Source: Gemmatimonadaceae bacterium (GTDB lineage: Bacteria > Gemmatimonadota > Gemmatimonadetes > Gemmatimonadales > Gemmatimonadaceae). Taken from it: DNA of 64,000 nucleotides. Of the stretch, positions 2,031 to 18,513 are shown in pieces; positions within the stretch are counted from its first letter, which is position 1, and each line of letters starts with the position of its first letter. The notes under the pieces are model-generated. The model did no database searches. It worked only from the letters and a program-made list of their open reading frames with translations, and was not told where the DNA came from. Where the stretch lies: NCBI GenBank assembly GCA_016742275.1, contig JACVCD010000003.1, positions 62,001 through 126,000 of the forward strand, written 5' to 3'. Position numbers and translations under genes: made by a program.

Positions 2031-4093
2031 TGTTGCAGTTGCAGAACTATGCTCTCGGCGAGTGGGTCGAGGGCACCGGTGCCAAGACCTCGCTCATCGA
2101 CGCGGTCACGGGCGAAGTGATCGGCGAAACCTCCAGTGGTGGTCTCGATTTCAACGCCATGCTGGATCATGCGCGTCGTGTGGGTGGACCCGCGCTGCGT
2201 GCGTTCACCTTCCATGAGCGCGCGCTCAAGCTCAAGCGCATTGCCCAGGCGCTGATGGCGCGCAAGGAAGAGTTCTATCCGCTGTCGTTCATGACCGGCG
2301 CTACGCGCACGGATTCATGGGTGGATATCGAAGGTGGTATCGGCACGTTCTTCGCGTACGCGAGCCGAGGACGTCGCGAATTCACGAATGAGCGCTTCCA
2401 TGTTGAAGGTCCCACCGAGCCGCTGTCCAAGGGCGGCACCTTTGTGGGACGGCACATTCTGGTGCCCATGGAAGGCGCGGCGGTGCACATCAACGCCTTC
2501 AACTTCCCCGTGTGGGGCATGCTCGAGAAGATGGCACCCGCCTTGTTGGCTGGTGTGCCCTGTGTGGTGAAGCCCAGCACCACGGGCAGTCATCTCACGC
2601 AGGCCGTGTTCAAGGCCATTCTCGAAACCGGTGAACTGCCGGCTGGTGCGCTGCAGCTCATTTGCGGTGAAGCGCGCACGCTGCTCGATCATGTGCAGGA
2701 GCAGGACATCGTGGCGTTCACCGGTTCGGCCGCCACGGGTCAGAAGCTCAAGAGTCATCAGTCGGTGGTGAAGCATTCGGTGCGCTTCAACATGGAAGCC
2801 GACTCGCTCAACTGCTGTATCCTTGGCCCCGATGCTACGCCGGGCACCGAAGAGTTTGATCTCTTCATCAAGGAAGTGGTGCGTGAGATGACCACGAAGG
2901 CTGGTCAGAAGTGCACGGCCATTCGTCGTACCATCGTGCCGGCCGGTCTTGAAGAAGCCGTCATTCAGGCTGTGTCGAAGCGCCTTGGCACCACGACCAT
3001 CGGCAATCCAACCACCGAAGGTGTGCGCATGGGGCCTCTGGCTTCGCGCGGTCAGGTGGTGTCGGTGACCGAGAGTGCGGCGGCCATTCGTGCGGCCGCC
3101 GAGCGTGTGTATGGTGGTGGTGACTTTGCGGTGGTGGGTGCGGACCGGGAGAAGGGCGCGTTCTTTGCGCCGGAGCTTTTGTACTGCGCCGATCCGCTGC
3201 GTCGTCTCGAGCCGCATGACATCGAAGCGTTTGGTCCGGTGAATACCATCATGCCGTACCGCGATCTCGATGAAGCCGTGCAACTGGCGCGCATGGGTCG
3301 TGGATCGTTGGTGGGTTCACTGGTCACGCATGATCCGGCCGTGGCGCAGCAGGTGGTGCTTGGTGCCGGTTGCTGGCATGGTCGCATGCTGGTGCTCGAT
3401 CGCACGAGCGCCAAGGAAAGCACCGGTCACGGCTCACCGCTGCCCAACCTCGTACACGGTGGCCCGGGTCGCGCTGGTGGTGGTGAAGAAATGGGTGGTG
3501 CGCGCGGCGTTACGCACTATCTGCAGCGTGTCGCCATTCAGGGCAGCCCCAGCATGCTCACGGCTATCACGCGTGAGTGGACGCGTGGCGCCGAAGAGAA
3601 GAAGGACGAGGTGCATCCGTTCCGGAAGACATTCGATCAGTTGCAGGTTGGTGATACCATCATCACCAAGTCGCGCGAGATCACGCTGGCCGATGTCGAA
3701 GCCTTTGCCAATCTTTCCGGCGACAAGTTCTACGCGCACATGAACGACGAACACGCGCGCAGCAATGGCGTGTTTGAAGGGCGTGTGGCGCACGGATACT
3801 TCATCGTGTCGGCGGCGGCTGGTTTGTTTGTCGAGCCCAATCTGGGGCCGGTGCTGGCCAACTACGGACTCGAGAAACTCCGTTTCACCAAGCCCGTATA
3901 CCCGGGAGACACGATCCATGTGCGTCTCACGGTGAAGCAGAAGACCGCGAAGGACACACCCGAAGGCACCATCCCGCAGGGCGTGGTGGAGTGGGATGTG
4001 GAAGTGTTCAACCAACTCAATGAGCCAGTTGCGGTGTACTCCATCCTCACGCTTGTAGCGCGGGGCGATACACCAAAACCCGTGCTCAATTAA
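2030..4093 (+). CDS. paaZ: Bifunctional PaaZ: oxepin-CoA hydrolase / 3-oxo-5,6-dehydrosuberyl-CoA semialdehyde dehydrogenase
   Basis: A 687-residue fusion of an N-terminal aldehyde dehydrogenase (about 1-525) and a C-terminal MaoC-type (R)-enoyl-CoA hydratase (about 540-687). It opens the oxepin-CoA ring and oxidises the resulting aldehyde. From the ATG at 2030 the ALDH general base falls at E256 (FNMEADSLN) and the nucleophile at C295 (GQKCTAIRR), the same numbers as in the E. coli enzyme as I recall them. The hydratase Asp/His pair is D565 and H570 (GDKFYAH). An upstream in-frame ATG at 1967 lies inside paaY and is rejected as start. Both active sites look intact. Confidence 0.93.
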   Translation: MLQLQNYALGEWVEGTGAKTSLIDAVTGEVIGETSSGGLDFNAMLDHARRVGGPALRAFTFHERALKLKRIAQALMARKEEFYPLSFMTGATRTDSWVDIEGGIGTFFAYASRGRREFTNERFHVEGPTEPLSKGGTFVGRHILVPMEGAAVHINAFNFPVWGMLEKMAPALLAGVPCVVKPSTTGSHLTQAVFKAILETGELPAGALQLICGEARTLLDHVQEQDIVAFTGSAATGQKLKSHQSVVKHSVRFNMEADSLNCCILGPDATPGTEEFDLFIKEVVREMTTKAGQKCTAIRRTIVPAGLEEAVIQAVSKRLGTTTIGNPTTEGVRMGPLASRGQVVSVTESAAAIRAAAERVYGGGDFAVVGADREKGAFFAPELLYCADPLRRLEPHDIEAFGPVNTIMPYRDLDEAVQLARMGRGSLVGSLVTHDPAVAQQVVLGAGCWHGRMLVLDRTSAKESTGHGSPLPNLVHGGPGRAGGGEEMGGARGVTHYLQRVAIQGSPSMLTAITREWTRGAEEKKDEVHPFRKTFDQLQVGDTIITKSREITLADVEAFANLSGDKFYAHMNDEHARSNGVFEGRVAHGYFIVSAAAGLFVEPNLGPVLANYGLEKLRFTKPVYPGDTIHVRLTVKQKTAKDTPEGTIPQGVVEWDVEVFNQLNEPVAVYSILTLVARGDTPKPVLN

Positions 4094-4125
4094 TCGCTCG
4101 ATTCTCTTTTTGATTCTCTGCCACC

Positions 4126-5529
4126 ATGGCCACGACCACATCCACCCGCAAGATCGATCGCTCCATTGTTGAGGGGCCAATCGGCCCGGCGGTGTGGAAG
4201 GTGGCGTGGCCTACGGTGCTGCAGAATGTCATTGGCGGTTTGCAGGGCATGATCGACCACGCGCTGGTGGGGCACTTTGTCGGCTACGCCGCGAATGCCG
4301 GCATCGGCGTGGGCTTCCAGATCTTTCTGGTGGTCATGGTGTTCATCTCGTCGCTGTTCAGCGGCATGGGCGTGCTGGTGTCACGCTTTGCCGGTGCCGG
4401 AGATGAAGCCGGTGTGAATCGCGCCGCGTCGCAGGCGTTTCTGTTGGCGTTGGCACTCTCTGTTGGTGTGCTGGCGCCGGTGGGTTACTTCTCGGCGCCC
4501 TGGCTGCTGAGCCTCGTGAATGCCGCGCCGAATGTGGAAGCCGAGGCGCTGCCGTTTTTGCGCATCATGTTCGTGTTTGGCTTTGGCATGATGATGTTCT
4601 TCATGCTGGGTGGTGCGCTGCGTTCGGCCGGTGATGCCAAGACGCCCATGCGATTGGGTATCGCGCTCACGATTGGCAATATCACGTTCAACGTGTTGCT
4701 CATTCGTGGTTATGGTCCGTTCCCCGAGATGGGCACCGCTGGCGCGGCCGCGGGCATCGCGATCTCGAGTGGGCTGGTGGCGTTGTACGCCATTCGCAAA
4801 TTGTTCAGCGGCGCGTGGGTGATTGATTTCCGCGGCATGTCGTGGAAGCCGGACTGGGAAATCATTCGTGCGTTGTTCCGTTTTGGACTGCCCACTGGTC
4901 TTCAGGGCATTGCCATGAACGTGGCGGGTGTGTTGTTGCTGCGTTTCATTGGATCGACCGCGCAGAGCGCCGAGGCCCAGGCTGCGTATGCTGTGGGGTA
5001 TACCGAACTGTTTTCACTGGTCACGTGGACTAGCGTGGGCCTGATGGGTGCCGCCGCGTCAGTGGCCGGGCAGAATCTTGGTGCCGGATTCCCTGATCGT
5101 AGTCACCAGGCCGTGCGCCATGCCGCGCGCATTGGGCTGGGCATTGCCGTGTTTGTGGGCGTGTTGTTCTGGGTTATTCCCGTGCAGTTGCTGGCGTTGT
5201 TCGGCATGACTGATCCCGAAGTCGTGCGCATTGGCCGTCAGTTGCTGATGTATCTCAGCGTATCGGGTGTGTTCATCACCCTGGCGCTTACGTTCACCGG
5301 TGGACTACAGGGCACCGGCGATACACGGAGTCCGTTGTATATCACCCTGGCGTCGCAATTTGCGTTGCCGGTGGGCTATCTCACTTTGGTGCAGTCCATG
5401 CGACCGTTGCAGCCTGCCGATGTGTGGCTGGCGATCGTGATGGGGCATGCTGCTCGTTGCCTACTAAGCGTTTGGCGGTTTGAGCAGGGGAAGTGGAAGG
5501 GGATTGAGTTGGGGGTGAGGGGGGCATAG
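4126..5529 (+). CDS. MATE family multidrug/toxin exporter
   Basis: A 467-residue integral membrane protein with about twelve hydrophobic helices in two homologous halves. The N-terminus (SIVEGPIGPAVWKVAWPT) has the usual MATE opening before helix 1. Helix-linking segments such as GGALRSAGDAKTPM and GGLQGTGDTRSPL are the paired internal-repeat signatures of the family. MATE proteins expel cationic or aromatic compounds using Na+ or H+ gradients. It follows paaZ by 32 nt on the same strand and could be co-transcribed, perhaps exporting toxic aromatic by-products; that link is inference. The substrate is unknown. Confidence 0.9.
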   Translation: MATTTSTRKIDRSIVEGPIGPAVWKVAWPTVLQNVIGGLQGMIDHALVGHFVGYAANAGIGVGFQIFLVVMVFISSLFSGMGVLVSRFAGAGDEAGVNRAASQAFLLALALSVGVLAPVGYFSAPWLLSLVNAAPNVEAEALPFLRIMFVFGFGMMMFFMLGGALRSAGDAKTPMRLGIALTIGNITFNVLLIRGYGPFPEMGTAGAAAGIAISSGLVALYAIRKLFSGAWVIDFRGMSWKPDWEIIRALFRFGLPTGLQGIAMNVAGVLLLRFIGSTAQSAEAQAAYAVGYTELFSLVTWTSVGLMGAAASVAGQNLGAGFPDRSHQAVRHAARIGLGIAVFVGVLFWVIPVQLLALFGMTDPEVVRIGRQLLMYLSVSGVFITLALTFTGGLQGTGDTRSPLYITLASQFALPVGYLTLVQSMRPLQPADVWLAIVMGHAARCLLSVWRFEQGKWKGIELGVRGA

Positions 5530-5711
5530 GGCGCTGGCGAAAACTACGAGTGGCCCGGGCTGGCGCTCGCCATTGAACGCGGCATAAGTTCTGGCCGTGC
5601 AACTGGATGGCATGCTTTGGAATGGCATGTCACCGACAATCATATGCCGCAAGCGATGGCCCATCCGGGGCGCGTCGAGCGATTTCATTCGCATGCCCCT
5701 GACTCTCCTGC

Positions 5712-7715
5712 ATGTCTGACCACAACACCTTTGCGAATCTGATCTGGCAGATCGCTGACTTGCTGCGCGGCCCCTATCGCCCGCCGCAGTACGAGCGCGT
5801 GATGCTGCCAATGACCGTATTGCGTCGCTTCGACTGTGTACTCGAGGCTTCCAAAGCCAAGGTCGTCGCAGCCCATCAGAAGCACAAAGGCGGAAAGCTC
5901 ACGGGAGATGCTCTCGACACGACGCTGAACAAGGTCGCGGGCCAGCGGTTCCACAACCACTCGCCGCTTGACTTCGCGAAGCTCAAAGGCGACCCGGATA
6001 ACATCAACAAGCACCTGGTCAGCTACATCAAGGGCTTCTCGGCCAACGTGCAGCGCATCTTCGAGTATTTCGAATTCGAAGCCGAGATCGAGAAGATGCA
6101 CGAGGCGAACATCCTGTACCTCGTGGTGTCGAAGTTCGCCGATGTGGATTTGCATCCGACGAACGTGGCGAACGAGCAGATGGGGCTCATCTTCGAAAAC
6201 CTTATTCGGCGCTTCAACGAACTCGCGAATGAAACGGCCGGTGATCACTTCACACCACGTGAAGTGATCCGTCTCATGGTGGACCTGCTTTTCATTCACG
6301 ACGACAAATTGCTCGCCACACCGGGCACTGTGCGCAAGCTGCTGGACCCGGCCTGTGGCACCGGCGGCATGCTGGCCGAAGCCCAGCGCTATCTGCGGGA
6401 ACATCATTCCGCCGCGCAGTTGTACGCCTATGGGCAGGACTACAACAAGCGCGCGTACGCGACGGCTGCTTCCGACATGCTCATGAAGGAAGTGAGTCAC
6501 AATGGCGGCGGGGATAACGTGCGCTATGGCGACACCCTGTTGCCCGACGCCGCAACCGGTGACCGATTTCCGAACGACACCTTTGATTACTTCCTGAGTA
6601 ACCCACCGTTTGGTGTCGACTGGAAGAAGCAGCAGAAAGAGGTGGTACGCGAGCACGAGAAGCGCGCCTTTGATGGTCGCTTTGGTGCAGGCCTGCCACG
6701 GGTGAACGATGGCGCGCTGTTGTTCCTGCAGCACATGTGGAGCAAGCGGGAGGACGTGAAGCCCAAGGAGCACAAACAGGGCTCGCGGCTCGCAATCGTG
6801 TTTTCCGGTTCCCCCATGTTTACCGGAGGCGCGGGCTCTGGTGAGAGCGAGATTCGCCGCTGGGTCATCGAAAATGATTGGCTCGAGGCCATTGTCGCAT
6901 TACCGGAGTCGATGTACTACAACACCGGTATTGGCACGTACATCTGGATCGTGACCAACCGCAAGGAAAAGCGGCGAAAGGGCAAGGTGCAATTGTTCGA
7001 CGCACGTGATGTGTGGACTGCCGGAGGCAGTGAAGACAGCAAGCGCAGTCTGGGCGACAAGCGGCGGCACATGACCATTGCGCAGATCGACGAGGTCGTG
7101 AGCCTCTATGGCAAGTTTGAGGAGGGCCCGCGCTCCAAGATCTTTGACAACGCCGACTTCGGCTACACACGGGTGACCGTTGAGCGACCGCTGCGTCTGC
7201 GCTACCAGATGACGGTGGATGAGAAAGCGCGTTTTCTCGAGGCGGTGCCGCACCTGCTGGATGATGTGGAGGCCATTGACAAGGCGTTTGGCCGCAAGCC
7301 GCTGCTGGACTGGTCGGCAACGTGGGGAAAGATCGAGAAGCTGCTCGAGAAGCGAGAAAGTCGTTGGAAGACGGCTGAGCAGAAGCTGTTTCGATCCGTG
7401 TTCACCCAGCGCGACCCGAAGGCTGAGTCCGTGCCGGTGAGTGGTCGTGGTGCGGGCTTTGAATCCGACGCCGACCTTCGTGACTACGAGAACGTGCCGC
7501 TCACAGAGGACGTGGACACGTACTTCGCGCGTGAGGTGCTGCCGCACGTGCCGGATGCGTGGACGGATCGGAGCAAGGACAAGGTCGGTTACGAGATCAA
7601 TTTTAACCGTTACTTCTATGTGTTCACGCCGCCGCGCGCTTTGGCGGAAATCGATCGAGATCTGAAGGCCGCCGAGGACGAGATCGTGCGGCTGCTGCGC
7701 GAGGTGACCACATGA
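5712..7715 (+). CDS. hsdM: Type I restriction-modification DNA methyltransferase subunit HsdM
   Basis: N6-adenine methyltransferase subunit of a type I restriction system. The SAM-binding motif I is DPACGTGGML (D212-) and the catalytic motif IV is NPPF (N297-F300). An HsdM N-terminal helical domain occupies about 1-150 (NLIWQIADLLRG). At 667 residues it is about 150 longer than many HsdM proteins; the extra length is after about residue 480 and is charged and helical, possibly for contact with HsdS/HsdR. The stop overlaps the hsdS start by 4 nt. It begins the island and lies 182 nt after the MATE gene; that gap has no recognisable tRNA or attachment site. Confidence 0.95.
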   Translation: MSDHNTFANLIWQIADLLRGPYRPPQYERVMLPMTVLRRFDCVLEASKAKVVAAHQKHKGGKLTGDALDTTLNKVAGQRFHNHSPLDFAKLKGDPDNINKHLVSYIKGFSANVQRIFEYFEFEAEIEKMHEANILYLVVSKFADVDLHPTNVANEQMGLIFENLIRRFNELANETAGDHFTPREVIRLMVDLLFIHDDKLLATPGTVRKLLDPACGTGGMLAEAQRYLREHHSAAQLYAYGQDYNKRAYATAASDMLMKEVSHNGGGDNVRYGDTLLPDAATGDRFPNDTFDYFLSNPPFGVDWKKQQKEVVREHEKRAFDGRFGAGLPRVNDGALLFLQHMWSKREDVKPKEHKQGSRLAIVFSGSPMFTGGAGSGESEIRRWVIENDWLEAIVALPESMYYNTGIGTYIWIVTNRKEKRRKGKVQLFDARDVWTAGGSEDSKRSLGDKRRHMTIAQIDEVVSLYGKFEEGPRSKIFDNADFGYTRVTVERPLRLRYQMTVDEKARFLEAVPHLLDDVEAIDKAFGRKPLLDWSATWGKIEKLLEKRESRWKTAEQKLFRSVFTQRDPKAESVPVSGRGAGFESDADLRDYENVPLTEDVDTYFAREVLPHVPDAWTDRSKDKVGYEINFNRYFYVFTPPRALAEIDRDLKAAEDEIVRLLREVTT

Positions 7716-8911
7716 CGGACTTCCGTGCGGCACCAAACTTCTGGTTGCGCAAGCAACTCAAGTGGGCCGTGACGTTTCAGCGTGGTCACGACCTACCCGA
7801 TGATGCGCGGGAAGAGGGGCCAGTGCCCATATATGCGGGCGGTGGAATTACAGGTTGGCACACGGAGTCCTGCGCCTCTCCCCCGGGGATCGTGACTGGT
7901 CGCTACGGCACGATCGGGGAATTTCACCTGGTGTCGACGCCGTACTGGCCGCTGAATACTGCTCTGTACAGCACCGACCTTCACGGCAATGACGCGGAGT
8001 ATTTGCGCTACTTGCTCGACTTTCTGGCGCCACTCTTTCAAGTCCATGCGGGCAAGTCGGCAGTCCCAGGCGTTGATCGAAACGATATTCATACGCTCCC
8101 TGTGGCGCTCCCCGGTTGGGATCAACAGCGGAGAATCGCGGCGTTCCTTGGAGGAGAGACGCGACGGATCGACGGACTGCTGGCGGCAAAGCGGTGCGTC
8201 CTCGACCTTCTCGCCGAGAAGCGCAAGGCCATCATCGCCACCGCAGTCACACGCGGACTCGACCCGAAGGTGAAGCTGCGCGACTCCGGCGTGCCGTGGC
8301 TGGGCGAGATCCCGGCGCATTGGGGCGTCGTTCAGAGTAGACGGCTGTTTCGTGTGCGAAACGAGCCGGCGCGACCATCGGATCGACAACTCACGGCTTC
8401 TCAGAAGTATGGGATGCTTCCTCAGTCCGACTTCGTGGAACTGGAAGGCCGTCGCGTCGTCGAGTTGGAAAAAGGCGTCGACAGCTTGAGGCACGTCGAG
8501 CCGAACGATTTCGTGATTAGTCTTCGCAGTTTTCAAGGCGGATTGGAGTGGAGCAAGATCTCGGGTTCCGTCACGTTTCACTACGTGGTCCTCGTCCCGA
8601 TTAAGTGGGTTCACCCGCCGTTCTTCGCTCATCTCTTCAAGAGCCTGCCATTCATCGAGGCTTTGAGGTCGACGGCTACGCTGATAAGGGACGGCCAGGA
8701 CCTGCGCTTCTCGCACTTCACGCTTGTCGACCTCCCCATCGTCCCCATTGACGAACAACGCAAGATTGCCGCCCATGTGGACCGCGAAACCGCAAAGCTC
8801 GACGCCGTGCGGGCGGCAACCGAGCGCACCATCGCGCTGCTCAAGGAACGGCGCTCTGCGCTGATCGCCGCCGCCGTAACCGGCCAGCTCGATATCACGG
8901 TGGCGGCGTGA
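7712..8911 (+). CDS. hsdS: Type I restriction-modification specificity subunit HsdS
   Basis: A 399-residue DNA-recognition subunit with two target-recognition domains, each followed by a helical spacer. The first conserved spacer begins WDQQRRIAAFLGGE (about 130) and contains AEKRKAIIATAVTRGLD. The second begins DEQRKIAAHVDRE (about 348) and ends KERRSALIAAAVTGQLD. Between them, PWLGEIPAHWGV opens TRD2. Both half-sites therefore look intact, implying an asymmetric bipartite target that cannot be predicted here. It overlaps hsdM by 4 nt upstream and the small fragment gene by 4 nt downstream. Confidence 0.95.
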   Translation: MTDFRAAPNFWLRKQLKWAVTFQRGHDLPDDAREEGPVPIYAGGGITGWHTESCASPPGIVTGRYGTIGEFHLVSTPYWPLNTALYSTDLHGNDAEYLRYLLDFLAPLFQVHAGKSAVPGVDRNDIHTLPVALPGWDQQRRIAAFLGGETRRIDGLLAAKRCVLDLLAEKRKAIIATAVTRGLDPKVKLRDSGVPWLGEIPAHWGVVQSRRLFRVRNEPARPSDRQLTASQKYGMLPQSDFVELEGRRVVELEKGVDSLRHVEPNDFVISLRSFQGGLEWSKISGSVTFHYVVLVPIKWVHPPFFAHLFKSLPFIEALRSTATLIRDGQDLRFSHFTLVDLPIVPIDEQRKIAAHVDRETAKLDAVRAATERTIALLKERRSALIAAAVTGQLDITVAA

Positions 8912-9039
8912 CGGACACGGCCCCCCACGAAGGCGAGCTGATTCTTTACCGCACCGCCGACAACACGATGCACGTCGAGGTGCTCCAAGAGTTCGAGACC
9001 AGTCGTCGCGACTACCCCGCCGCGTCGGAATCCACATGA
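8908..9039 (+). CDS. Short 43-codon gene between hsdS and rhuM, possible rhuM-type N-terminal remnant
   Basis: Starts with GTG at 8908, overlapping the hsdS stop by 4 nt, and its TGA overlaps the next ATG by 4 nt. The peptide begins VTDTAPHEGELILYRTADNT. The stretch EGELILYRTADNTMHVEVL looks like the first strand pair that opens many full-length RhuM-family proteins. The sequence then turns into an unrelated polar tail. It may be a degraded N-terminus of another RhuM-type gene kept because it preserves translational coupling, or a real micro-protein. The precise 4-nt overlap on both sides argues that it is translated. Function unknown. Confidence 0.5.
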   Translation: MTDTAPHEGELILYRTADNTMHVEVLQEFETSRRDYPAASEST

Positions 9040-10097
9040 CCCGCAAGAAGACCTCGCCCACGTCCCTCGTCCGCTCCTCCGCCGCCGAGTACCTGGTTTT
9101 TGTCGCGGCCAGCGGCGCGGGTGGCGTCGAGGCGGTCTATGCCGACGAAAATGTCTGGCTCAGCCAGAAGATGATGGCGCAGCTCTACGACGTGGAGGTC
9201 CCCACCATCAACTACCACCTGAAAAAGGTGTTCGAGGACAGCGAACTACAGGAGGTGTCAGTTATTCGAAATTTTCGAATAACTGCCGCCGACGGAAAAA
9301 CCTACGACACCAAGCACTACAACCTGTCGGCGATCATCGCGGTCGGCTACAAGGTCAACTCCGAGCGTGCGGTGCAGTTCCGCAAATGGGCCACGGGCGT
9401 GGTAGAGGAGTTCACCATCAAGGGCTTCGCGATGGACGACGAGCGCCTCAAGCGCGGCGGGTCCGTGCTGAGCGATCGCTATTTCGAAGAGCAGCTGCAG
9501 CGCGTTCGCGAGATCCGCCTGTCGGAGCGAAAGTTCTATCAGAAAATCACCGACATCTATGCGACCTCCGTCGACTACGATCTCACCGCGCAGGCCACCA
9601 AACGCTTCTTCGCCACCGTGCAGAACAAGCTGCACTGGGCGATTCACGGGCAAACGGCGGCCGAGGTCATCGTTGATCGCGCGGACGCGACCAAGGAACA
9701 CATGGGTCTGCGCACCTGGGCCGACGCGCCGCTCGGCAAAATCCAGAAGTTCGATGTGGCGGTCGCGAAGAACTACCTCACCGAACTGGAGCTGGCCCAA
9801 CTTTCGCGGCTGGTGAACGCCTACCTCGACGTGGCCGAGGACATGGCGCTGCGGAAGATCCCGATGACGATGCAGGATTGGGAGACGCGTCTGAATCGTT
9901 TCCTCGCGGCCACCGACCGCGAGGTATTGCAGGACGCCGGCAGAGTGAGCGCCGAGATCGCGCGTGCCCACGCCGAGACGGAGTTCGAGAAATACCGCAT
10001 CGTGCAGGATCGATTGTTCGAGAGCGACTTTGATCGCGTCGTGGCACAAGCCAGACGAATCGAAGCAAAGAGCGGTGAGTCGGAGGAGCAGCCGTGA
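9036..10097 (+). CDS. RhuM family (COG3943) protein inside the type I RM operon
   Basis: A 353-residue RhuM/virulence-type protein. An N-terminal winged-helix-like segment (about 30-100; WLSQKMMAQLYDVEVPTIN) precedes the conserved block YNLSAIIAVGYKVNSERAVQ (about 90-115) and FRKWATGVVEEFTIKGF. The rest is helical, with KFYQKITDIYATSVDYD and AHAETEFEKYRIVQDRLFES conserved in relatives I remember. Members often sit within or beside type I restriction loci. Their molecular role is not settled; suggestions include DNA-binding regulator and toxin-like partner. No Fic motif (HPFxxGN) is present. It overlaps the genes on each side by 4 nt, so it is made together with HsdS and HsdR. Confidence 0.88.
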   Translation: MTRKKTSPTSLVRSSAAEYLVFVAASGAGGVEAVYADENVWLSQKMMAQLYDVEVPTINYHLKKVFEDSELQEVSVIRNFRITAADGKTYDTKHYNLSAIIAVGYKVNSERAVQFRKWATGVVEEFTIKGFAMDDERLKRGGSVLSDRYFEEQLQRVREIRLSERKFYQKITDIYATSVDYDLTAQATKRFFATVQNKLHWAIHGQTAAEVIVDRADATKEHMGLRTWADAPLGKIQKFDVAVAKNYLTELELAQLSRLVNAYLDVAEDMALRKIPMTMQDWETRLNRFLAATDREVLQDAGRVSAEIARAHAETEFEKYRIVQDRLFESDFDRVVAQARRIEAKSGESEEQP

Positions 10098-13000
10098 CGA
10101 TCACACCCCGACACTCCGAGACTGCGTTCGAAACCGTCATCGAGCACCACCTGCTCAGTCACGGCTACGTTGCCGTTTCGTGCGATGACTTCGTCCACGA
10201 TCGTGCCGTGTTTGCGCCCGTAGTGCTTGAGTTCATCAAGGACACGCAGCCCAGAGAGTGGGCCAAACTCGAGGCGCTGCACGGAGCAAAGACCGGTGAG
10301 CAGATTCTCACTGACCTCTGCAAATGGATGGATACCCATGGTTCGCTGGCGACGCTCAGACACGGATTCAAATGTTACGGGCGTACACTCTACGCGGCCT
10401 TCTTCAAGGCTGCGCATGAGCTCAACCCGGAACTTGAAGAGCGCTACGCGAAGAACCGCGTGGGCATCACACGTCAGCTGCATCACTCGAAGGCCCGGCC
10501 CGGTGATTCGCTCGACGTGACCCTCAGCATCAACGGCATCCCCATCGCGACACTCGAACTCAAGAATGCGATGACGGGTCAGACCGTCGAGCACGCGCGG
10601 CGGCAATACAAACAGGACCGTGATCCCCGAGATCTCATCTTCGAGTTCAAGCGACGCACGCTCGTGCACTTTGCCGTCGATACCGACACAGTGCTCATGA
10701 CGACGCGCCTCGCCGGCAGTGCCACGCACTTCCTGCCGTTCAACAAGGGTGAGGCTGGTGGCGCTGGAAATCCTGCCGATCCACAGGGCCGGAGCTACCG
10801 TACGGCATACCTGTGGGAAGAGGTGCTTGCGCGGGATAGCCTGCTCGATCTGCTGGCGCGGTTCGTCCATCTGCAGATCGACGAAAAGCGCGACGACCAG
10901 GGCCGCAAGGTCAAGACCGAACAAATGGTGTTCCCACGCTATCACCAGCTCCAGGCGGTGCGCCAACTGGTGGACGCGGCCCGTAATGAAGGACCGGGAT
11001 ACAACTACCTTGTTGAGCACTCGGCCGGCAGCGGCAAGAGCAACACGATTGCCTGGCTTACGCACCGGTTGGCCTCGTTGCACAACGAAGGCAATCAGCG
11101 TGTTTTCGACAGCGTCATTGTTGTGACTGATCGCGTAGTGCTCGATCAGCAGCTCCAGGACAATATCTACCAGTTCGAGCACAAGCGCGGTGTGGTGCAG
11201 AAGATCGACGAGAGTTCGAGGCAGCTCGCCGAGGCGCTGGAGAACGCCGTACCGATCATCATCACCACGTTGCAGAAGTTCCCCTTTGTCTCGCGGCAGT
11301 TGCTCAAGATGGCCGAAGAGCGCGGCGAGACCGGTACAGGTACGCTACAGACCAGGCGCTGCGCGGTGGTCATTGATGAGGCGCACAGCTCGCAGGGCGG
11401 TGAGACCGCAACAGACCTGAAGGAAGTGCTTGGAGGTGAAGCGCTTCGCACGGAGTCTCAGAGGCAGGCGGCCGAAGAGGGACGGGAAGACCTCGAAGAG
11501 ATGTTCCGCAGCATGGCCAAACGTGGACGGCAGGCAAACCTGAGCTTCTTTGCGTTCACCGCCACACCCAAGCACAAGACACTCGCGGTGTTCGGACGTG
11601 GTGGCCAACCTGCGCACCGCTACACCATGCGACAGGCCATCGAGGAGGGTTTCATCCTCGATGTGCTGAAGAGCTACACCACCTACGCCACGTACTATCG
11701 GCTGCTCAAGGCGTGCGAGGATGATCCGAACGTCGAGCGCAAGAAAGCTGCGCGCGCACTGGCCCGCTTCCTCAAGCTGCATCCGCACAACATCGCGCAA
11801 AAAACGGAAGTGATGGTTGAGCACTTCTACTCGGTTACCCGACATAAGATCGGGGGGCGTGCCAAGGCCATGGTGGTCACCGGCTCGCGCCTGGAGGCGG
11901 TGCGCTACAAGCAGGGCTTCGACCGCTACATCAAGGAAAAGGGCTACCCCATCAAGTCATTGGTGGCATTCTCCGGTGTGGTGTCCGACGACAAGCTGTC
12001 CGATGTGTCGTATTCGGAAGTGGACATGAACGGGGGGCTTCGCGAGAAGCAGCTCCCCGAGACATTTGCATCACCAGAGTATCAGGTGTTGCTGGTAGCG
12101 GAGAAGTATCAGACCGGCTTCGATCAACCGTTGCTGCATTCGATGTACGTCGACAAGCGGCTCGCGGGCATTCAGGCGGTACAGACCCTTTCGCGACTCA
12201 ATCGCATTCACCCGGTCAAGGAAGACACGTTCGTTCTCGACTTTGTGAACGATCGCGAAGAGATCCGTGAAGCATTCAAGACGTACTACGAGGGAGCGGA
12301 GATTGGCGAAGAGGTCGATCCCTCGCGTTTGTATGCCATTCAGGGTGAACTTGATGCGGCGGGTGTGTATCTGACGGAGGAAGTGTCCCGCTTCTGTGAT
12401 GTGTATTTCAAACCCAAGCAGAAGCAGAGCGCACTCGACCACCAGGCGATGAATGCGGCTCTTGATCCGGCGGTTTCCCGATTCAAGGTGCGGCTTGGCG
12501 AAAGCCCGGAGGAGGCAGAACTCTGGCGCGGGAAGCTGCAGGCCTTTCAGAATCTCTACGGCTTTCTGAGTCAGGTCATTCCCTATCAGGACTCTGACCT
12601 TGAGCGCCTATACGTGTTCGTGCGGCATCTTCTGACGAAACTGCCGCGTCGTTCGGCTGGAGCCGCCTATCAGTTCGACGATGAAGTGAAGCTCGAGTAC
12701 TATCGACTGCAGAAGATCAGCGAAGGGTCGATTGCACTCACGGATGGAGCGGCACCGAAGCTCGATGGCCCGTCGGAGGTCGGGAGTGGCGCCCTGCATG
12801 AGCAGCCCGTTCCACTTTCGCAGCTCATTGATGTAGTGAACGAGCGCTTTGGTACGGACTTCAATCAGGCTGATCAGCTTTTCTTTGATCAGATCGTCGA
12901 GGCCGCGATGGGAGATGACGGCCTGCGTCGTGCCGCCGCGGTGAATCCCGGCGACAAGTTTGAGCTGCTCTTCAAGAGTGTGCTTGAACGGCTGTTCGTC

Positions 13001-13651
13001 GATCGCATGGATCAGAACGAGGACATTTTTGTTCGATTCATGAACGACGGAAATTTTCAGAAGATCGTTACCAGTTGGATGGCCGAAGAAGCCTATCGGC
13101 GCCTTCGTCATTCAGGCGGTGCCGAAGAGCGGGCGCCGAATGGGAAGCTGCCTGCGTCGCTCCGTCTCGTTGAGGGACGGCCAGCGGAGCGCTACAAGAG
13201 CTGCATCCCACTCGTACCGCTGAAGGCTGCTGCCGGGACATTCGGCGATCCGCAGCACGTCGCTGATGGCGAGTTTGAATGGGTGGAGCTGGAGATGCGC
13301 CGCCCCCTCAAGCGGGGAATGTTTGTTGCGGCTGTCGTCGGAAAATCGATGGAGCCCACGATCCCCGATGGCGCGTATTGCTTGTTTCAAGCTCCGGTGA
13401 AAGGAACTCGTCAGGGGAAGATCGTGCTTGTGCAGATGCGAGATGTTACTGACCCGGAAACAGGTCAGCGGTACACTGTCAAGCGCTATGAAAGTGCGAA
13501 AGCAACCAAGGGTGACTCGTGGCAGCACGAACGAATCACGCTCAAGCCGCTGAATCCTGATTTCGAACCGATCGCACTTACCGGCGACGACGAAGGCTCA
13601 GTGACCTTGATCGCTGAATTTGTCCAAGTAGTTGGCACGTCAGTCTCCTAG
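10094..13651 (+). CDS. hsdR: Type I restriction endonuclease HsdR with C-terminal S24 (LexA-like) peptidase domain
   Basis: Motor and nuclease subunit of 1185 residues. The N-terminal PD-(D/E)xK nuclease has D141 and E155-L-K157 (IATLELKN). The helicase has Walker A GSGKS (G312-S316), DEAH at 428-431 and motif III FTATP shortly after. After the usual HsdR C-terminus (about 1020) there is an added domain, about 1040-1185. It contains VGKSMEPTIPDGAY (S1085) and, 45 residues on, YTVKRY (K1130). This is the Ser-Lys arrangement of LexA/UmuD/CI-type S24 peptidases. The domain has no HTH of its own. Fusion to HsdR is unusual and could allow self-cleavage or damage-responsive control; that is inference. 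Confidence 0.92.
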   Translation: MTITPRHSETAFETVIEHHLLSHGYVAVSCDDFVHDRAVFAPVVLEFIKDTQPREWAKLEALHGAKTGEQILTDLCKWMDTHGSLATLRHGFKCYGRTLYAAFFKAAHELNPELEERYAKNRVGITRQLHHSKARPGDSLDVTLSINGIPIATLELKNAMTGQTVEHARRQYKQDRDPRDLIFEFKRRTLVHFAVDTDTVLMTTRLAGSATHFLPFNKGEAGGAGNPADPQGRSYRTAYLWEEVLARDSLLDLLARFVHLQIDEKRDDQGRKVKTEQMVFPRYHQLQAVRQLVDAARNEGPGYNYLVEHSAGSGKSNTIAWLTHRLASLHNEGNQRVFDSVIVVTDRVVLDQQLQDNIYQFEHKRGVVQKIDESSRQLAEALENAVPIIITTLQKFPFVSRQLLKMAEERGETGTGTLQTRRCAVVIDEAHSSQGGETATDLKEVLGGEALRTESQRQAAEEGREDLEEMFRSMAKRGRQANLSFFAFTATPKHKTLAVFGRGGQPAHRYTMRQAIEEGFILDVLKSYTTYATYYRLLKACEDDPNVERKKAARALARFLKLHPHNIAQKTEVMVEHFYSVTRHKIGGRAKAMVVTGSRLEAVRYKQGFDRYIKEKGYPIKSLVAFSGVVSDDKLSDVSYSEVDMNGGLREKQLPETFASPEYQVLLVAEKYQTGFDQPLLHSMYVDKRLAGIQAVQTLSRLNRIHPVKEDTFVLDFVNDREEIREAFKTYYEGAEIGEEVDPSRLYAIQGELDAAGVYLTEEVSRFCDVYFKPKQKQSALDHQAMNAALDPAVSRFKVRLGESPEEAELWRGKLQAFQNLYGFLSQVIPYQDSDLERLYVFVRHLLTKLPRRSAGAAYQFDDEVKLEYYRLQKISEGSIALTDGAAPKLDGPSEVGSGALHEQPVPLSQLIDVVNERFGTDFNQADQLFFDQIVEAAMGDDGLRRAAAVNPGDKFELLFKSVLERLFVDRMDQNEDIFVRFMNDGNFQKIVTSWMAEEAYRRLRHSGGAEERAPNGKLPASLRLVEGRPAERYKSCIPLVPLKAAAGTFGDPQHVADGEFEWVELEMRRPLKRGMFVAAVVGKSMEPTIPDGAYCLFQAPVKGTRQGKIVLVQMRDVTDPETGQRYTVKRYESAKATKGDSWQHERITLKPLNPDFEPIALTGDDEGSVTLIAEFVQVVGTSVS

Positions 13652-13730: not shown

Positions 13731-13913
13731 CCGGCCGAGACATAGGATTGCTTCGAATTCCTACGCTTCCTAAGGTAGTGCCTCATTTGCAGCATCCAGC
13801 CGACCTATCGTATGGGTCATTCCGGCCCTACGCTCCTCGTCCTCACCAACAGCTCTGTACGTTTCTTCGGCAGATGACTTGATATTGAAGTCAAGAAGCG
13901 TCAGCATTGATAG

Positions 13914-14282
13914 ATGCCTAAGTCCGCAACGTTCGGCAGCCGACTGCATGAGTTTAGAAAGCGGGCGCGGCTCACGCAGAAGGAACTCGCTGAAGCCATC
14001 GATGTCGATTTCACCTACATCTCGAAAATAGAGAGCGGTGGTGCACCACCGCCGGCGCGTGCTCGGATCGAGGAAGCTGCAAAGATCTTGAAACTCTCCA
14101 TAACCGAGACGGATGAGCTGTTTCACTTGGCGGAGAAGATTCCCGCAAATGTCGAGGACTTCGTCGCTAAACAGCCAGCGACCCAGCGGTTGCTTCGCAG
14201 CATTCGCGCCGTGCCCGTATCTGAGCAGGCAAAGCTGCTCGAAGATCTCATTAAAGAGGCGGAGAAGCGACACAGGAAGTGA
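13914..14282 (+). CDS. XRE family helix-turn-helix transcriptional regulator
   Basis: A 122-residue protein. The N-terminal HTH_3 domain (about 8-70) has LTQKELAEAIDVDFTYISKI as its helix-turn-helix. A C-terminal helical segment follows. The next gene, an ImmA/IrrE-type metallopeptidase, overlaps it by 4 nt (GTGA). Such repressor-peptidase pairs work as switches: on a signal the peptidase cleaves the HTH repressor (ImmR/ImmA of ICEBs1, DdrO/IrrE of Deinococcus). Here the pair lies just upstream of the ubiquitin-like cassette and probably controls it, its own operon, or both. No Shine-Dalgarno sequence is clear before the ATG at 13914. Confidence 0.88.
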   Translation: MPKSATFGSRLHEFRKRARLTQKELAEAIDVDFTYISKIESGGAPPPARARIEEAAKILKLSITETDELFHLAEKIPANVEDFVAKQPATQRLLRSIRAVPVSEQAKLLEDLIKEAEKRHRK

Positions 14283-15058
14283 ATCCAACGCCGGAGCATT
14301 TTATGGTACGAGCATCGAGATGGTTGGATCAAATCGAAGAACGGGCCTACTCGAGGCTCCGCCAGCTCCGGCAGCGTGGCCTCTGGGATGGTAAGCCACC
14401 AGTTCCCATTGAGCATCTGATCGAGCACATTCTCGAACTGAACCTTCGATGGGAGGTGATTCAGGAAGAGTCAGGTGAATCCGTTTTTGCGTGTCTTCGC
14501 CCGGCGACACGCGAGATCGTCCTGAATGAAATCCATCGCGAGCGGTTCCAGAATCAGCCGGGCCTCGAGCGGTTTTCGATTGCGCACGAAGCCGGCCACG
14601 CAGACGTTTTCGCAGTCGTCCGAGAAGCCGATCAGATCGGGCTTCTGGTTGGACTCGGCTACCGGCCACAGCGTCGATCAGCGACCAATGGGGAAGTCTT
14701 TTCGCTGCACACCCGACTACGAGAGCTACCACGGGCTATCCGTACCGAGGTAATGCAAGGTCTCGCTGCGCGCGAGCGGGAACGACGTGCGGCAGGAGAG
14801 GACTCCCCGCTCGAACGACGCGCGGTTGACCACTATGCGGCCGTGCTCTTGATGCCCGCCGAACAGGTGCGCGCTGCAGCAGCGGCCATCACTCTCAGAT
14901 CACAGCGAGACATTCGTAGGCTCGCAGACTCCTTCTTGGTGTCCACAGACGCCATGCGCATCAGACTTCAGGAACTCGGCCTGATCCATAGCGTCGCAAA
15001 GGATGGCACGGTCCAGATCACAGATCCCGCGACCCGGCTGCAAGGTTCGCTGTTCTGA
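14279..15058 (+). CDS. ImmA/IrrE family metallo-endopeptidase
   Basis: A 259-residue putative zinc peptidase. The metal-binding motif HEAGH (H103-E104-x-x-H107) lies in RFSIAHEAGHADVF. The third ligand cannot be assigned with certainty. A second conserved patch, about 180-200 (ERRAVDHYAAVLLMP), matches the region after the active site in this family, where E/D plus AxxxLMP is typical. The start is GTG at 14279, overlapping the XRE stop by 4 nt; an ATG at 14303 is an alternative. Expected to cleave the partner XRE repressor. A 126-nt gap with promoter-like sequence follows before the Ubl gene. Confidence 0.88.
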   Translation: MNPTPEHFMVRASRWLDQIEERAYSRLRQLRQRGLWDGKPPVPIEHLIEHILELNLRWEVIQEESGESVFACLRPATREIVLNEIHRERFQNQPGLERFSIAHEAGHADVFAVVREADQIGLLVGLGYRPQRRSATNGEVFSLHTRLRELPRAIRTEVMQGLAARERERRAAGEDSPLERRAVDHYAAVLLMPAEQVRAAAAAITLRSQRDIRRLADSFLVSTDAMRIRLQELGLIHSVAKDGTVQITDPATRLQGSLF

Positions 15059-15080
15059 CCACATTCGCGTAAAAATGAAA

Positions 15081-15110
15081 CTTGACTTTTAGTTCAACTT
15101 GACATTGAAT
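15081..15110 (+). promoter_or_regulatory. Promoter-like element with 17-nt-spaced CTTGAC direct repeats upstream of the Ubl cassette
   Basis: TTGACT at 15082-15087 and TTGAAT at 15105-15110 are separated by 17 nt, an acceptable sigma70 -35/-10 pair. CTTGAC also occurs twice (15081-15086 and 15098-15103), so the second copy sits in the spacer and could be a repressor site. The block lies 75 nt before the preferred Ubl start (ATG 15185) and just after the ImmA-like gene. It suggests that the cassette has its own controllable promoter. Confidence 0.4.
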
Positions 15111-15184
15111 TCATGTACAAGTCTGTCGCGCGCCGTTGCGCGCTGCAGAGTACGACATCACTCAGCGTAGCGGAGGTCCGCGAG

Positions 15185-15508
15185 ATGACCAGCAACATGG
15201 AAGGCGGAACTGAGGGAGCGAAGGATCCGGGTGCAGATGGCACACCCCCAGGTCGGGGCGTATACCACGTGAACGAGCGAAACGGGCGAGTAGATGCTCA
15301 CGGCGAAGAGCTTCTCGGGCGTGAGATTCTCAGTCGGGTTGGCCTGAGCACCGACAAGTACGAGTTATGGACCGAGGTCGCCGGCAAAACCGGCGAATCC
15401 ATTGAGCCCAACGAACGCCACTTCACCAAGCCCGGCGACCACTTTCGGGCCACAATTCGAGGCACGGACTACTCGAACGGAATGCTTCAGGTGGTGGTGC
15501 GCACATGA
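15185..15508 (+). CDS. Ubiquitin-like protein of the multi-ubiquitin domain type (single Ubl)
   Basis: The start is ATG 15185, preceded by GGAGG (15172-15176) with an 8-nt spacer; an in-frame ATG at 15113 has no such site. The product is 107 residues: a disordered Gly/Pro-rich tail (1-24), then one beta-grasp domain (about 25-107). Sequence landmarks are YHVNERNGRVD, GREILSRVGLSTDKYELW and PGDHFRATIRG, the pattern I recognise from bacterial multi-ubiquitin domain proteins. Those often have tandem copies; here there is one. It ends LQVVVRT, with no Gly-Gly; the nearest glycine is G99, eight residues before the end. It overlaps the E2-like gene by 4 nt. Likely the modifier of the conjugation cassette. 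Confidence 0.8.
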   Translation: MTSNMEGGTEGAKDPGADGTPPGRGVYHVNERNGRVDAHGEELLGREILSRVGLSTDKYELWTEVAGKTGESIEPNERHFTKPGDHFRATIRGTDYSNGMLQVVVRT

Positions 15509-15903
15509 GCCGCGAGATCATCCGACAGCAAGCTGCCGCGCTCAAGCGTGCGGGCTCGAACGTACGGACTGTCGACGAGGGAGAGAACGTCATCGTCATC
15601 CTCGAAGCCTACACGCCGCCGGGGGATAACTACGAGCCTCGACAGCTCGATGCGCTCGCCTTCATCGTGCCGGCGCCATACCCCGACGCGTCTCCCGATC
15701 CTTCTGGCTTCTTCGTCCGTCCCGCGTCGATCATTGTCGCCAGTACCAGGAGCAGTCCTCAGAGCACGAGCGACGCCATGCTGCTCGGTATACCGCATCG
15801 AAAGTTCTCCTGGAAGCCAAAGACATTTCAGTTCGACGGAACGGTCGACACGCTGGAGACACATCTCGCTACGATCGAACGGCGTTTCCTCCTCGGAACG
15901 TGA
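15505..15903 (+). CDS. E2/UBC-like protein (prokaryotic E2 family E type), cysteine-free
   Basis: A 132-residue protein between a Ubl and a JAB-E1 gene, with 4-nt overlaps on both sides (ATG 15505; TGA 15901-15903). The core QLDALAFIVPAPYPDASPDP fits the E2 strand followed by the YPxxxP element. FSWKPKTFQFDG and DTLETHLATIERRFL correspond to the Trp-Pro region and the C-terminal helix. The whole protein contains no cysteine, so it cannot form the usual E2-Ubl thioester. A serine-rich loop (about 80-90, STRSSPQSTSD) lies roughly where the catalytic loop would be. Either this is an E2 variant using another nucleophile, or an E2 fold with a binding role. Confidence 0.78.
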   Translation: MSREIIRQQAAALKRAGSNVRTVDEGENVIVILEAYTPPGDNYEPRQLDALAFIVPAPYPDASPDPSGFFVRPASIIVASTRSSPQSTSDAMLLGIPHRKFSWKPKTFQFDGTVDTLETHLATIERRFLLGT

Positions 15904-17423
15904 ACGCTCTCTCCTTCCTCCGACGCGCGGCTGGCGCAGTTTCAACCGCCCTGTTTCGTTTACTCGGGCGTCATCCAGAGGGAAGGCGCCTTGAAATCGC
16001 GTGGTCGGTGACCACGCGTGAGACCATGGTCGGCGTCGCGCTCGCCGCGAGCCCGCGCGAAGGTGCTGTTGTTGCCTACTGTCGGTCGAGTACTGCGTGT
16101 GATCGGGACACCCTCATTGTTCAGGACGTGGTCCCTCCGATCGCTCGCGACCTGAGCTATCACCGCGGGCCGGTTGTCACGGTCACCTCCCACTATTGGA
16201 ATCGGGTGATCGACGGTCTTGCCGGCCAAGGTCCTGATACCGGTCTGGCCGTTCTTCACACGCATCCGGGTTTCGGCGTACCGATGTGGAGTTCGGACGA
16301 CGATCGAGCGGACGACGATCTTGCCCGTTTCCTCTTCGGCGAAGGTTTTCTGCAACCTGAAGCTCCGCTGATCTCGATCGTTGCCAGTATGACGGATATC
16401 CGCGCTCGTGTTCTCAGGTTTGATCGCACATCCGCAATAAAGGTCTCAATGACGCCGGTCGAGCGTATACGAACGCTCGGTCCGAGTCGCATTCAGTTCG
16501 AATCAACGACTGATCGTCTGGACGAAGGTCGTATTCACGACGTTCCGGCCCACGCGGATCGCTCAGTTAGAGTTTTTGGCCGTGAAGGCCAACGACTTCT
16601 CGCCGATCTCCACATCGCCGTCGTCGGTAACGGCGGCGTCGGATCAATCTGCACCGAGCACGTCGCCCGGTGGGGAATCGGTCGCATCAGCTGCTGGGAC
16701 CTGGACATCGTCAAGGACGTGAACGTCAATCGATCGGCTATCATCACTTTCGCTGACGCCAAGCGAAAGAGGTCCAAGGCGGAGCGCCTCGCGCGCGCAC
16801 TCCCGGCCTTCTCCCTCGTCAGGGACATCCGGGTCCGCTGGAGTGTTTCCGACGTACGTGACCGCGCCGAGATCGCACATCTTCTCAGCGCTGACATCAT
16901 CCTGATGCTCGTGGACGATCCACGCCCAAGGCATTTCATCAATCGGCTCGCGTACGCGCATTATATCCCTGTCCTCGACGGTGGCAATGCCATCCGATCC
17001 ACTGCCGAGGATGACCCGTCAGCCGAAGATTCCATGGTCGAAGCCGGAGGCATCCGCATCAACTACCTCACACCCGACGGCCCATGTCTGTGGTGCGCTG
17101 GACATCTGACTTCGGAGCGTCTCGCCTTGGCGTTCCGTCCGGACTACGATATGGCCGCCGATCGTGCGCGTGGCTATGTCGAGGGGCTCGGCCCTGCACA
17201 CGCGCCTAGCGTCATGCCGGTGAACTCCCTCACGGCCGCGCTCCTTGAGATCCGACTTCAGGATCTCCTATTCGGGCTTTCAAACCGCAATGTCCCAGAG
17301 GTGTACTACGACCTGCTCGGCGGGACGCTTGATGAACTTCCCCGGTTGATCCGGTCACACTGTCCTCAGTGCATGCGGTGGCTGGGGCTAGGAGATGGGG
17401 CGGACCTACCGTTTCGCGAATAG
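15900..17423 (+). CDS. JAB deubiquitinase-E1 (ThiF) fusion protein
   Basis: A 507-residue two-domain protein starting at GTG 15900. Domain 1 (about 30-190) is a JAB/MPN metallopeptidase: LHTHPGFGVPMWSSDDD supplies H120, H122 and D134 of the JAMM motif. Domain 2 (about 225-490) is an E1/ThiF adenylation domain with the nucleotide loop VVGNGGVGS (243-249), WDLDIVKDVNVNR (D267/D269, N277, R278) and two zinc-type pairs, CLWC (396-399) and CPQC (488-491). No further cysteine sits in the expected catalytic crossover loop. JAB would trim or remove Ubl; E1 would adenylate it. Encoded last in the Ubl-E2-E1 cassette. Confidence 0.88.
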   Translation: MNALSFLRRAAGAVSTALFRLLGRHPEGRRLEIAWSVTTRETMVGVALAASPREGAVVAYCRSSTACDRDTLIVQDVVPPIARDLSYHRGPVVTVTSHYWNRVIDGLAGQGPDTGLAVLHTHPGFGVPMWSSDDDRADDDLARFLFGEGFLQPEAPLISIVASMTDIRARVLRFDRTSAIKVSMTPVERIRTLGPSRIQFESTTDRLDEGRIHDVPAHADRSVRVFGREGQRLLADLHIAVVGNGGVGSICTEHVARWGIGRISCWDLDIVKDVNVNRSAIITFADAKRKRSKAERLARALPAFSLVRDIRVRWSVSDVRDRAEIAHLLSADIILMLVDDPRPRHFINRLAYAHYIPVLDGGNAIRSTAEDDPSAEDSMVEAGGIRINYLTPDGPCLWCAGHLTSERLALAFRPDYDMAADRARGYVEGLGPAHAPSVMPVNSLTAALLEIRLQDLLFGLSNRNVPEVYYDLLGGTLDELPRLIRSHCPQCMRWLGLGDGADLPFRE

Positions 17424-17535
17424 ATCTTCGGATCCTGCCGTGTACCTTATGGCCGACCTCCGGAAGGCGACGTGTCGACGCATTCTATGCGCTCGTCTTC
17501 AGCAAAAATGATGTTTGACCACGTGCCAGAAATTC

Positions 17536-18513
17536 ATGCCATACGATCTTTCGCAGTACCTCGTCATCGGTGTATCCTCGCGGGCCTTATTCGATCTTTC
17601 GATTGAAGACGAGATTTTCCGCGCGCAGGGCCTGAGTGAGTACTCACGGTATCAGATTGAGCACGAGTACGATCTGCTGCGCCCGGGCGCAGCATTTCCT
17701 CTTGTGAGCGCCATTCTTGCCCTCAATGCGCTGGCGCCAGGAAAGCGTAAGGCGGAGGTCGTCGTGATGTCTCGAAATAGCGGCGACACAAGCCTTCGCA
17801 TCTTCAATTCCATCAAACACTACGAACTTGATATTACGCGGGCCGCGTTGACCGGTGGGGCCTCATTGGCGCCTTACCTTCACGCATATAAGGTCGACCT
17901 CTTCCTGTCGGCGGATGAAGCAGATGTGCAATCTGCCGTTGATGCCGGTATCGCAGCCGGAGTCATCTACGCCCCGCCAGCGAAACTGAGCGGAAAATCG
18001 GACCAGATCCGAATTGCATTTGACGGTGATGCGGTGCTCTTCTCAGATGAGTCGGAGCGTATATACCAAAGTGAAGGACTTGAGGCCTTTCTTGCACATG
18101 AGACCGTCAATGCTCAGAAGCCATTGCCAGAAGGCCCATTCGCAAAACTCCTGAAGACGCTATCCGCTCTTCAGAATGACTCGGCGCAAGATACTCCGCC
18201 CATTCGCGTCGCCCTTGTCACGGCACGCAATGCTCCTGCACATGAGCGAGTCATTCGAACGCTGCGCCGGTGGAACGTTCGCGTTGATGAGGCCCATTTT
18301 CTGGGTGGTGTCTCGAAGGCAGAGGTGCTGCAAGCCTTTGGTGCGCACATCTTTTTTGATGATCAGGACGGCCACGTTGGGCCGGCTTCTAAGTTTGTAC
18401 CAGCCGCACGTGTTCCGTATCTCTCCCGTCCGAGCGTGAAAAAGGCGGCTGAACCGCTACCCCCTGCGTATGATGCTGCGGATGCCGGTTGGCGCTCATC
18501 TTCTGCGATGTGA
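17536..18513 (+). CDS. 5'-nucleotidase family protein (PF06189, cytosolic NT5C1-like)
   Basis: A 325-residue protein. The start chosen is ATG 17536 because PYDLSQYLVIGVSSRALFDL is the usual family N-terminus; a TTG seven codons upstream is less likely. The HAD-like nucleophile motif is IAFDGDAVLF (D163, D165), and VRVDEAHFLGGVSKAEVL followed by HIFFDDQ matches the C-terminal HAD motif. Relatives dephosphorylate nucleoside 5'-monophosphates. It follows the Ubl cassette by 112 nt on the same strand, at the end of the island. Nucleotide-degrading enzymes occur in several antiphage systems, so a defence role is possible but unproven; a stand-alone metabolic gene is equally consistent. Confidence 0.85.
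   Translation: MPYDLSQYLVIGVSSRALFDLSIEDEIFRAQGLSEYSRYQIEHEYDLLRPGAAFPLVSAILALNALAPGKRKAEVVVMSRNSGDTSLRIFNSIKHYELDITRAALTGGASLAPYLHAYKVDLFLSADEADVQSAVDAGIAAGVIYAPPAKLSGKSDQIRIAFDGDAVLFSDESERIYQSEGLEAFLAHETVNAQKPLPEGPFAKLLKTLSALQNDSAQDTPPIRVALVTARNAPAHERVIRTLRRWNVRVDEAHFLGGVSKAEVLQAFGAHIFFDDQDGHVGPASKFVPAARVPYLSRPSVKKAAEPLPPAYDAADAGWRSSSAM

Follow-up and report, generated by a model that had tools for sequence, protein, structure and literature searches.

The 64-kb window of a Gemmatimonadaceae genome analysed here very probably contains a CapHP-linked operon of the Bub (bacterial ubiquitination-like) type, from the branch without DUF6527. The operon consists of five genes, capH-capP-bubA-bubB-bubCD, and its gene content, gene order, homology, intact catalytic residues and operator-like repeats are direct observations. 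The assignment follows from the match of the JAB-E1 and E2-like proteins to BubCD and BubB, from a layout corresponding to class 6e of Iyer et al. 2006, which is now named Bub, and from the association of Bub operons with CapH and CapP. Class 6e was described as combining a poly- or solo ubiquitin-like protein (Ubl), a Cys-less E2/RWD, a JAB-E1 fusion and a metal-binding C-x3-C-x35-38-H-x2-C protein (PMC1779556).

Three open reading frames (ORFs) on the forward strand are located at 15185-17423, with 4-nt overlaps between successive genes (ATGA, then GTGA). The bubA-like gene (15185-15508) starts with an ATG at 15185 preceded by GGAGG, and encodes a single-domain Ubl of 107 aa with the C-terminus ...GDHFRATIRGTDYSNGMLQVVVRT. 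The bubB-like gene (15505-15903) encodes a Prok-E2_E protein of 132 aa, while the bubCD-like gene (15900-17423, GTG start) encodes a 507 aa protein with a JAB (JAMM) domain N-terminal to an E1/ThiF domain. Of 76 ORFs in the surrounding region, these three come top in searches with profiles of the trio from which the window sequence had been excluded (E1 5e-82, E2 6e-11, Ubl 0.003). Upstream and in the same orientation, a capH-like gene for a 122 aa helix-turn-helix (HTH) repressor (13914-14282; PADLOC capH 3e-9, Pfam HTH_31 4e-13, HTH_3 2e-10) overlaps in like manner a capP-like gene for a 259 aa M78 (ImmA/IrrE) metallopeptidase (14279-15058; PADLOC capP 5e-13), which contains HEAGH (HExxH) at residue 103 and scores 1.7e-4 against Pfam Peptidase_M78, slightly below the cut-off. 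A repressor and an HExxH protease gene hence adjoin the putative immune operon.

An earlier, sequence-only reading had proposed a three-gene cassette of a class predicted by Iyer and Aravind, with a single Ubl domain, no separate E3, and repressor-peptidase neighbours in a restriction-modification setting. The three domain assignments were right, as were the lone Ubl domain, the absence of an E3, the neighbours and the class, which is row 6e of Iyer et al. 2006. The trio and its overlaps also stood, but the unit has five genes, capH-capP being assigned to it because operator-like dyads are shared. The description as an undescribed variant was wrong: this type of operon was defined, under the name Bub, in 2025-2026, with structures solved and the CapH+CapP/CapW association known. 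The reading had overlooked the lack of cysteine in the E2 and the absence of DUF6527, a gene usually present.

The JAB-E1 and E2-like proteins

Against Pfam, the JAB-E1 protein matches ThiF at 6e-22 and Prok-JAB at 0.022, the latter under the cut-off, and among PDB sequences it is closest to Citrobacter BubCD (1e-16). A full JAMM set is present in the JAB domain (E54/H120/H122/S131/D134) and the E1 domain carries G243, G248, D267, D269, N275, R278, K293 and D339. Both sets are conserved across 45 homologues, with few or no exceptions, and an N-terminal JAB-E1 fusion with both active sites intact is what class 6e/Bub operons encode. No Cys is invariant in the E1 homologues, the commonest being CxxC pairs of zinc-binding type; these correspond to C396, C399, C488 and C491 in the window E1 and are absent from the Enterobacter/Rhizobium group. 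At the N-terminus (15900-15970), a stretch of ~24 residues, LSFLRRAAGAVSTALFRLLGR, resembles an amphipathic helix and was not seen in most relatives.

The E2-like protein exceeds the Pfam cut-off for Prok-E2_E (PF14462, 5e-9) and aligns with the BubB family at 97% by hhalign, and a profile built from related E2s retrieves Citrobacter BubB (2e-46). As in other class 6e/Bub operons this Prok-E2_E-type protein lacks a catalytic Cys, and it contains no Cys at all. Neither E1 nor E2 has a conserved candidate catalytic Cys; the E2 has a near-invariant Ser instead. Pro60 and Ser102 are the most conserved columns among 38 E2s (36/38 each), and the apparent Ser102 exceptions resemble alignment shifts, with Ser nearby in the rows concerned. 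In the haloarchaeal rows, a Ser following an aromatic residue lies near the Ser102 column. We take such near-invariance in a Cys-less E2 as a hint that Ser102 has a catalytic role. The Bub mechanism paper is said to report non-thioester intermediates.

A competing explanation, to which we assign a substantial but minority share of the probability, is that the E2-like protein is a non-catalytic RWD-like scaffold and that BubCD hands the Ubl adenylate straight to targets. Class 6e E2s were called inactive by Iyer et al. 2006 because they have no Cys (PMC1779556), and the window E2 furthermore departs from the S-R-H motif found in the characterised clade, lacking the R-H after the conserved Ser. 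In contrast, a Ser at 36/38 among divergent E2s would be unexpected for a mere scaffold.

The ubiquitin-like protein

Searched alone, the window Ubl has no family match. Its orthologue at the nearest related locus (L071), 50% identical, weakly matches Multi_ubiq (0.006), and hhalign of the pair against independent Bub-type Ubls gives a probability of 94 and an E-value of 1e-7. The AlphaFold model has a core at residues 32-92 with a predicted local distance difference test (pLDDT) score of about 80-88. The four highest-ranking VIA-align hits of this model are without exception structures of bacterial multi-ubiquitin proteins (9d5b, Z 6.7; 8u38, 6.7; 9cd2, 6.5; Citrobacter BubA in its complex with BubCD, 9ea8_B, 5.1); as Z values of 5.1-6.7 lie under 8, short of proof by Z alone, only their ranking and the consistency of the family were used. 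With Foldseek on its own, no match of the model reached a significant E-value. Taken together, hhalign and VIA-align place the Ubl in the bacterial multi-ubiquitin type expected of class 6e/Bub, with no direct Pfam match.

At 15470-15510, the E2 reading frame gives a Gly-rich NASGGGAHM just upstream of the E2 start, overlapping the Ubl 3' end. This raised the idea of a Ubl-E2 fusion, lost or programmed, through that frame; it was rejected, because the Ubl gene of L071 terminates in the frame used by the window Ubl, with a stop codon of its own and an ATGA overlap.

Relatives and the DUF6527-free branch

The Ubl-E2-JAB/E1 order recurs in plasmid records of Rhizobium, Celeribacter, Enterobacter, cyanobacteria, actinobacteria and haloarchaea, several with HTH and ImmA/IrrE neighbours. 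Long JAB-E1 matches occur in about 30 of the 395 genomes of the window's phylum. Genes unlinked in all relatives would have refuted the sequence-only reading, but 24/31 phylum loci found via E1 alone have an adjacent E2-profile match and 27/31 a Ubl-profile match, hence the linkage of the trio is not due to chance. A neighbourhood survey, suggested as a check in that reading, found HTH and M78 genes adjoining trios of both clades, L071 included, where they are divergently oriented. The nearest relative is Gemmatimonadetes bacterium 2013_60CM_65_52 (L071/L092), with identities of 57% (E1), 52% (E2) and 50% (Ubl), while the window E1 is about 20-30% identical to wider relatives.

In a 45-protein JAB-E1 tree, the window falls in a 19-row group of haloarchaea, actinobacteria and its own phylum with support 100/99. 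DUF6527 is found in none of this group's loci, nor in three more rows that join weakly (87/54), whereas it is present in 18/23 loci of the other half of the tree, which includes the Enterobacter relative of the solved proteins. On the tree, three changes are enough to account for this distribution. Elsewhere in the window genome DUF6527 was not found with one query, a weak negative.

Haloarchaeal E2s were recognised by a profile made without them at 2e-4 to 2e-3 only, so their membership is likely, not strong. The haloarchaeal plasmid trios of Ubl, E2-like and JAB-E1 genes lie at 4179-6704 (L018), 3723-6467 (L019) and 2684-5494 (L024), and two of their Ubls have long N-terminal extensions. Pfam gave no match for the Ubl and E2 of L018, the one haloarchaeal locus scanned. 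The Bub-type locus of a congener of the window bacterium (L004/L061, G001) differs, as its one Ubl is fused to the E2; it lacks DUF6527. Scanning of genome contigs with a single JAB-E1 sequence found nothing, and with a two-row alignment one true relative, the L071 locus; a 15-row JAB-E1 alignment was too diverse for search patterns. No relative was found in the viral contigs scanned, and tblastn of the window E2 against plasmids gave no match.

Putative CapH operators

Three dyads flank the regulatory genes. Putative operator 1 (ACTTGATATTGAAGTCAAGA, 13877-13896) lies 17 nt upstream of the capH start and fits ACTTGA-N8-TCAAGT with 1 mismatch. Putative operators 2 (ACTTGACTTTTAGTTCAACT, 15080-15099) and 3 (ACTTGACATTGAATTCATGT, 15097-15116) lie before bubA, and form a 17-nt direct repeat with each other. 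Allowing <=1 mismatch, the motif occurs 3 times in 64 kb, only before capH (1) and bubA (2), compared to 0.04 expected, an expectation that is post hoc because the motif derives from the very sites counted. When an extended pattern was run over all 4.57 Mb of the genome, two of the three dyads were the only sites with 1 mismatch, and the third had 2. As the dyads are symmetric and confined to the two relevant promoters, they are probable CapH operators. They support repression only, not CapH cleavage activated by single-stranded DNA (ssDNA) or derepression. In relatives, ssDNA switches on CapP, which then cuts CapH (PMC10904395; PMC13373217), and 219/544 Bub operons are associated with CapW or CapH+CapP (PMC13373217).

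Several observations weigh against the assignment. The dyad motif was spotted by eye at the sites later counted. DUF6527, common in Bub operons, is not found beside the window trio. The Ubl is the weakest part of the trio, its identity from sequence alone being weak, and it ends ...VVVRT with no terminal Gly. In the Ubls of other relatives, ...TEG, ...NPG or ...PG precedes a short tail, and the Enterobacter Ubl-E2 fusion has a Gly at residue 229, the same number as the final residue of the BubA(155-229) construct in 9ea8; several actinobacterial-type Ubls, however, end ...PVA without Gly. Trimming of the window Ubl by JAB back to a Gly is possible, since its ...DYSNG-MLQVVVRT stretch corresponds to the Gly and tail of relatives. 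Structure prediction, which the sequence-only reading had put forward as a check, succeeded for the Ubl, whose model matches multi-ubiquitin structures, but not for the E2, whose model (from two sequences) was poor (mean pLDDT 52) and was set aside. As a result, where Ser102 falls with respect to the canonical E2 cysteine is only provisional, and alignment on other motifs would move it a few residues.

Genomic setting

The operon sits in a defence island, as type I restriction-modification, RhuM/PDC-S05 and PDC-S08 genes flank it. Upstream are hsdM (5712-7715), hsdS (7712-8911) and hsdR (10094-13651), with a RhuM-family gene (PDC-S05, 1e-151; 9036-10097) between hsdS and hsdR. A PF06189 5'-nucleotidase gene, the defence candidate PDC-S08 (1e-133; 17515-18513), lies 92 nt downstream; it was not counted as an operon member because none was seen among the L071 ORFs. 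For the 277 bp ahead of capH, no counterpart was found in 30 related genomes, which is in keeping with a locally acquired segment, not proof of one. At its C-terminus (product residues 1043-1173), HsdR has a Peptidase_S24 (LexA-like) domain, matched at 8.6e-9, in which a G-K-S-M-E-P motif may be partnered by a Lys; this restriction subunit is perhaps tied to damage-induced self-cleavage.

An antiviral role of the operon is plausible. To call this operon a defence system is an inference, since no phage protection has so far been shown for Bub operons (PMC13373217). The same chemistry could instead serve a damage-induced stress response that tags host proteins, and the regulator does sense damage rather than phage as such. 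We regard this as less likely, given the defence island around the operon, the order of restriction-modification system, regulator and immune operon described for CapKS (PMC13373217), and the patchy, often plasmid-borne relatives. A sulfur-carrier or cofactor pathway of the ThiS/MoaD-ThiF/MoeB kind is highly improbable: the E1 domain does match ThiF/MoeB models, but with scores far under their cut-offs, no rhodanese or cofactor genes were seen in the surroundings, the operon includes an E2-family gene, the E1 carries a fused JAB, and the best structure match is BubCD.

Proposed mechanism

In the mechanism we propose for the CapHP-linked Bub-type operon, CapH would repress its own promoter and that of bubA via the shared dyads. 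DNA damage or ssDNA would activate CapP, leading to CapH cleavage and derepression of the operon. JAB may trim the Ubl tail, and the E1 domain of BubCD would adenylate the Ubl C-terminus. The Ubl could then be passed to target proteins without a cysteine thioester, helped by BubB and probably as an oxyester on the conserved Ser102, and JAB could remove it again. CapP sensing, CapH cleavage, adenylation, conjugation and deconjugation are inferred from characterised relatives, while the Ser102 transfer step and the antiphage purpose are hypotheses.

Bub pathways demonstrate ubiquitin-like tagging in bacteria. With a three-gene set and a near-invariant serine in an E2 that has no cysteine, cysteine-free transfer becomes directly testable. 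The haloarchaeal plasmid trios may broaden the known range, and the operator dyads provide a simple handle on the timing of the system's switch-on. It is conceivable, though doubtful, that the trio represents a minimal three-protein bacterial/haloarchaeal Ubl branch, with no DUF6527, that conjugates via a conserved E2 serine and no catalytic cysteine, and is damage-switched via CapH/CapP in this lineage.

Comparison with known systems

A bacterial Ubl/E1/E2/JAB logic in defence islands is exemplified by Bil (ISG15-like) and type II CBASS (cyclic oligonucleotide-based antiphage signalling system). Unlike these, the window has JAB fused to E1 and no E1-E2 fusion; in the JAB-E1 protein, the E1-E2 models of PADLOC cover no more than the ThiF part, and no CD-NTase is present among the scanned neighbours of the operon.

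The layout agrees with class 6e in the N-terminal JAB on E1 and in the Cys-less E2/RWD-like gene between Ubl and JAB-E1, and a solo-Ubl example (Amac) is listed for that class. In contrast, the window lacks the metal-binding 'Y' protein, whose motif fits DUF6527; this gene was treated as optional because the class text gives 'two or three' genes besides E1 (PMC1779556). As for the CapH+CapP regulators of CBASS and Bub, the HTH and M78 peptidase genes overlap and lie immediately before the operon, although the PADLOC matches are moderate and the pair has the same orientation as bub, whereas it is divergent in L071.

The closest comparison is with Citrobacter BubA/BubB/BubCD (PDB 9ea4, 9ea8, 9eae, 9eav), with which the window shares a Ubl, a cysteine-less Prok-E2_E protein and a JAB-E1 fusion in the same gene order, and intact JAMM and adenylation residues. 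The window Ubl is single and separate, whereas Bub has a multi-Ubl or a Ubl-E2 fusion; DUF6527 and the R-H after the E2 serine are absent, and the E1 keeps zinc-type cysteines that the Enterobacter Bub homologue lacks. The operon is hence known in kind and probably represents a less described branch, to which this analysis adds the operator-like dyads, a supported DUF6527-free group, the conserved E2 Ser102 and intact JAMM and adenylation residues.
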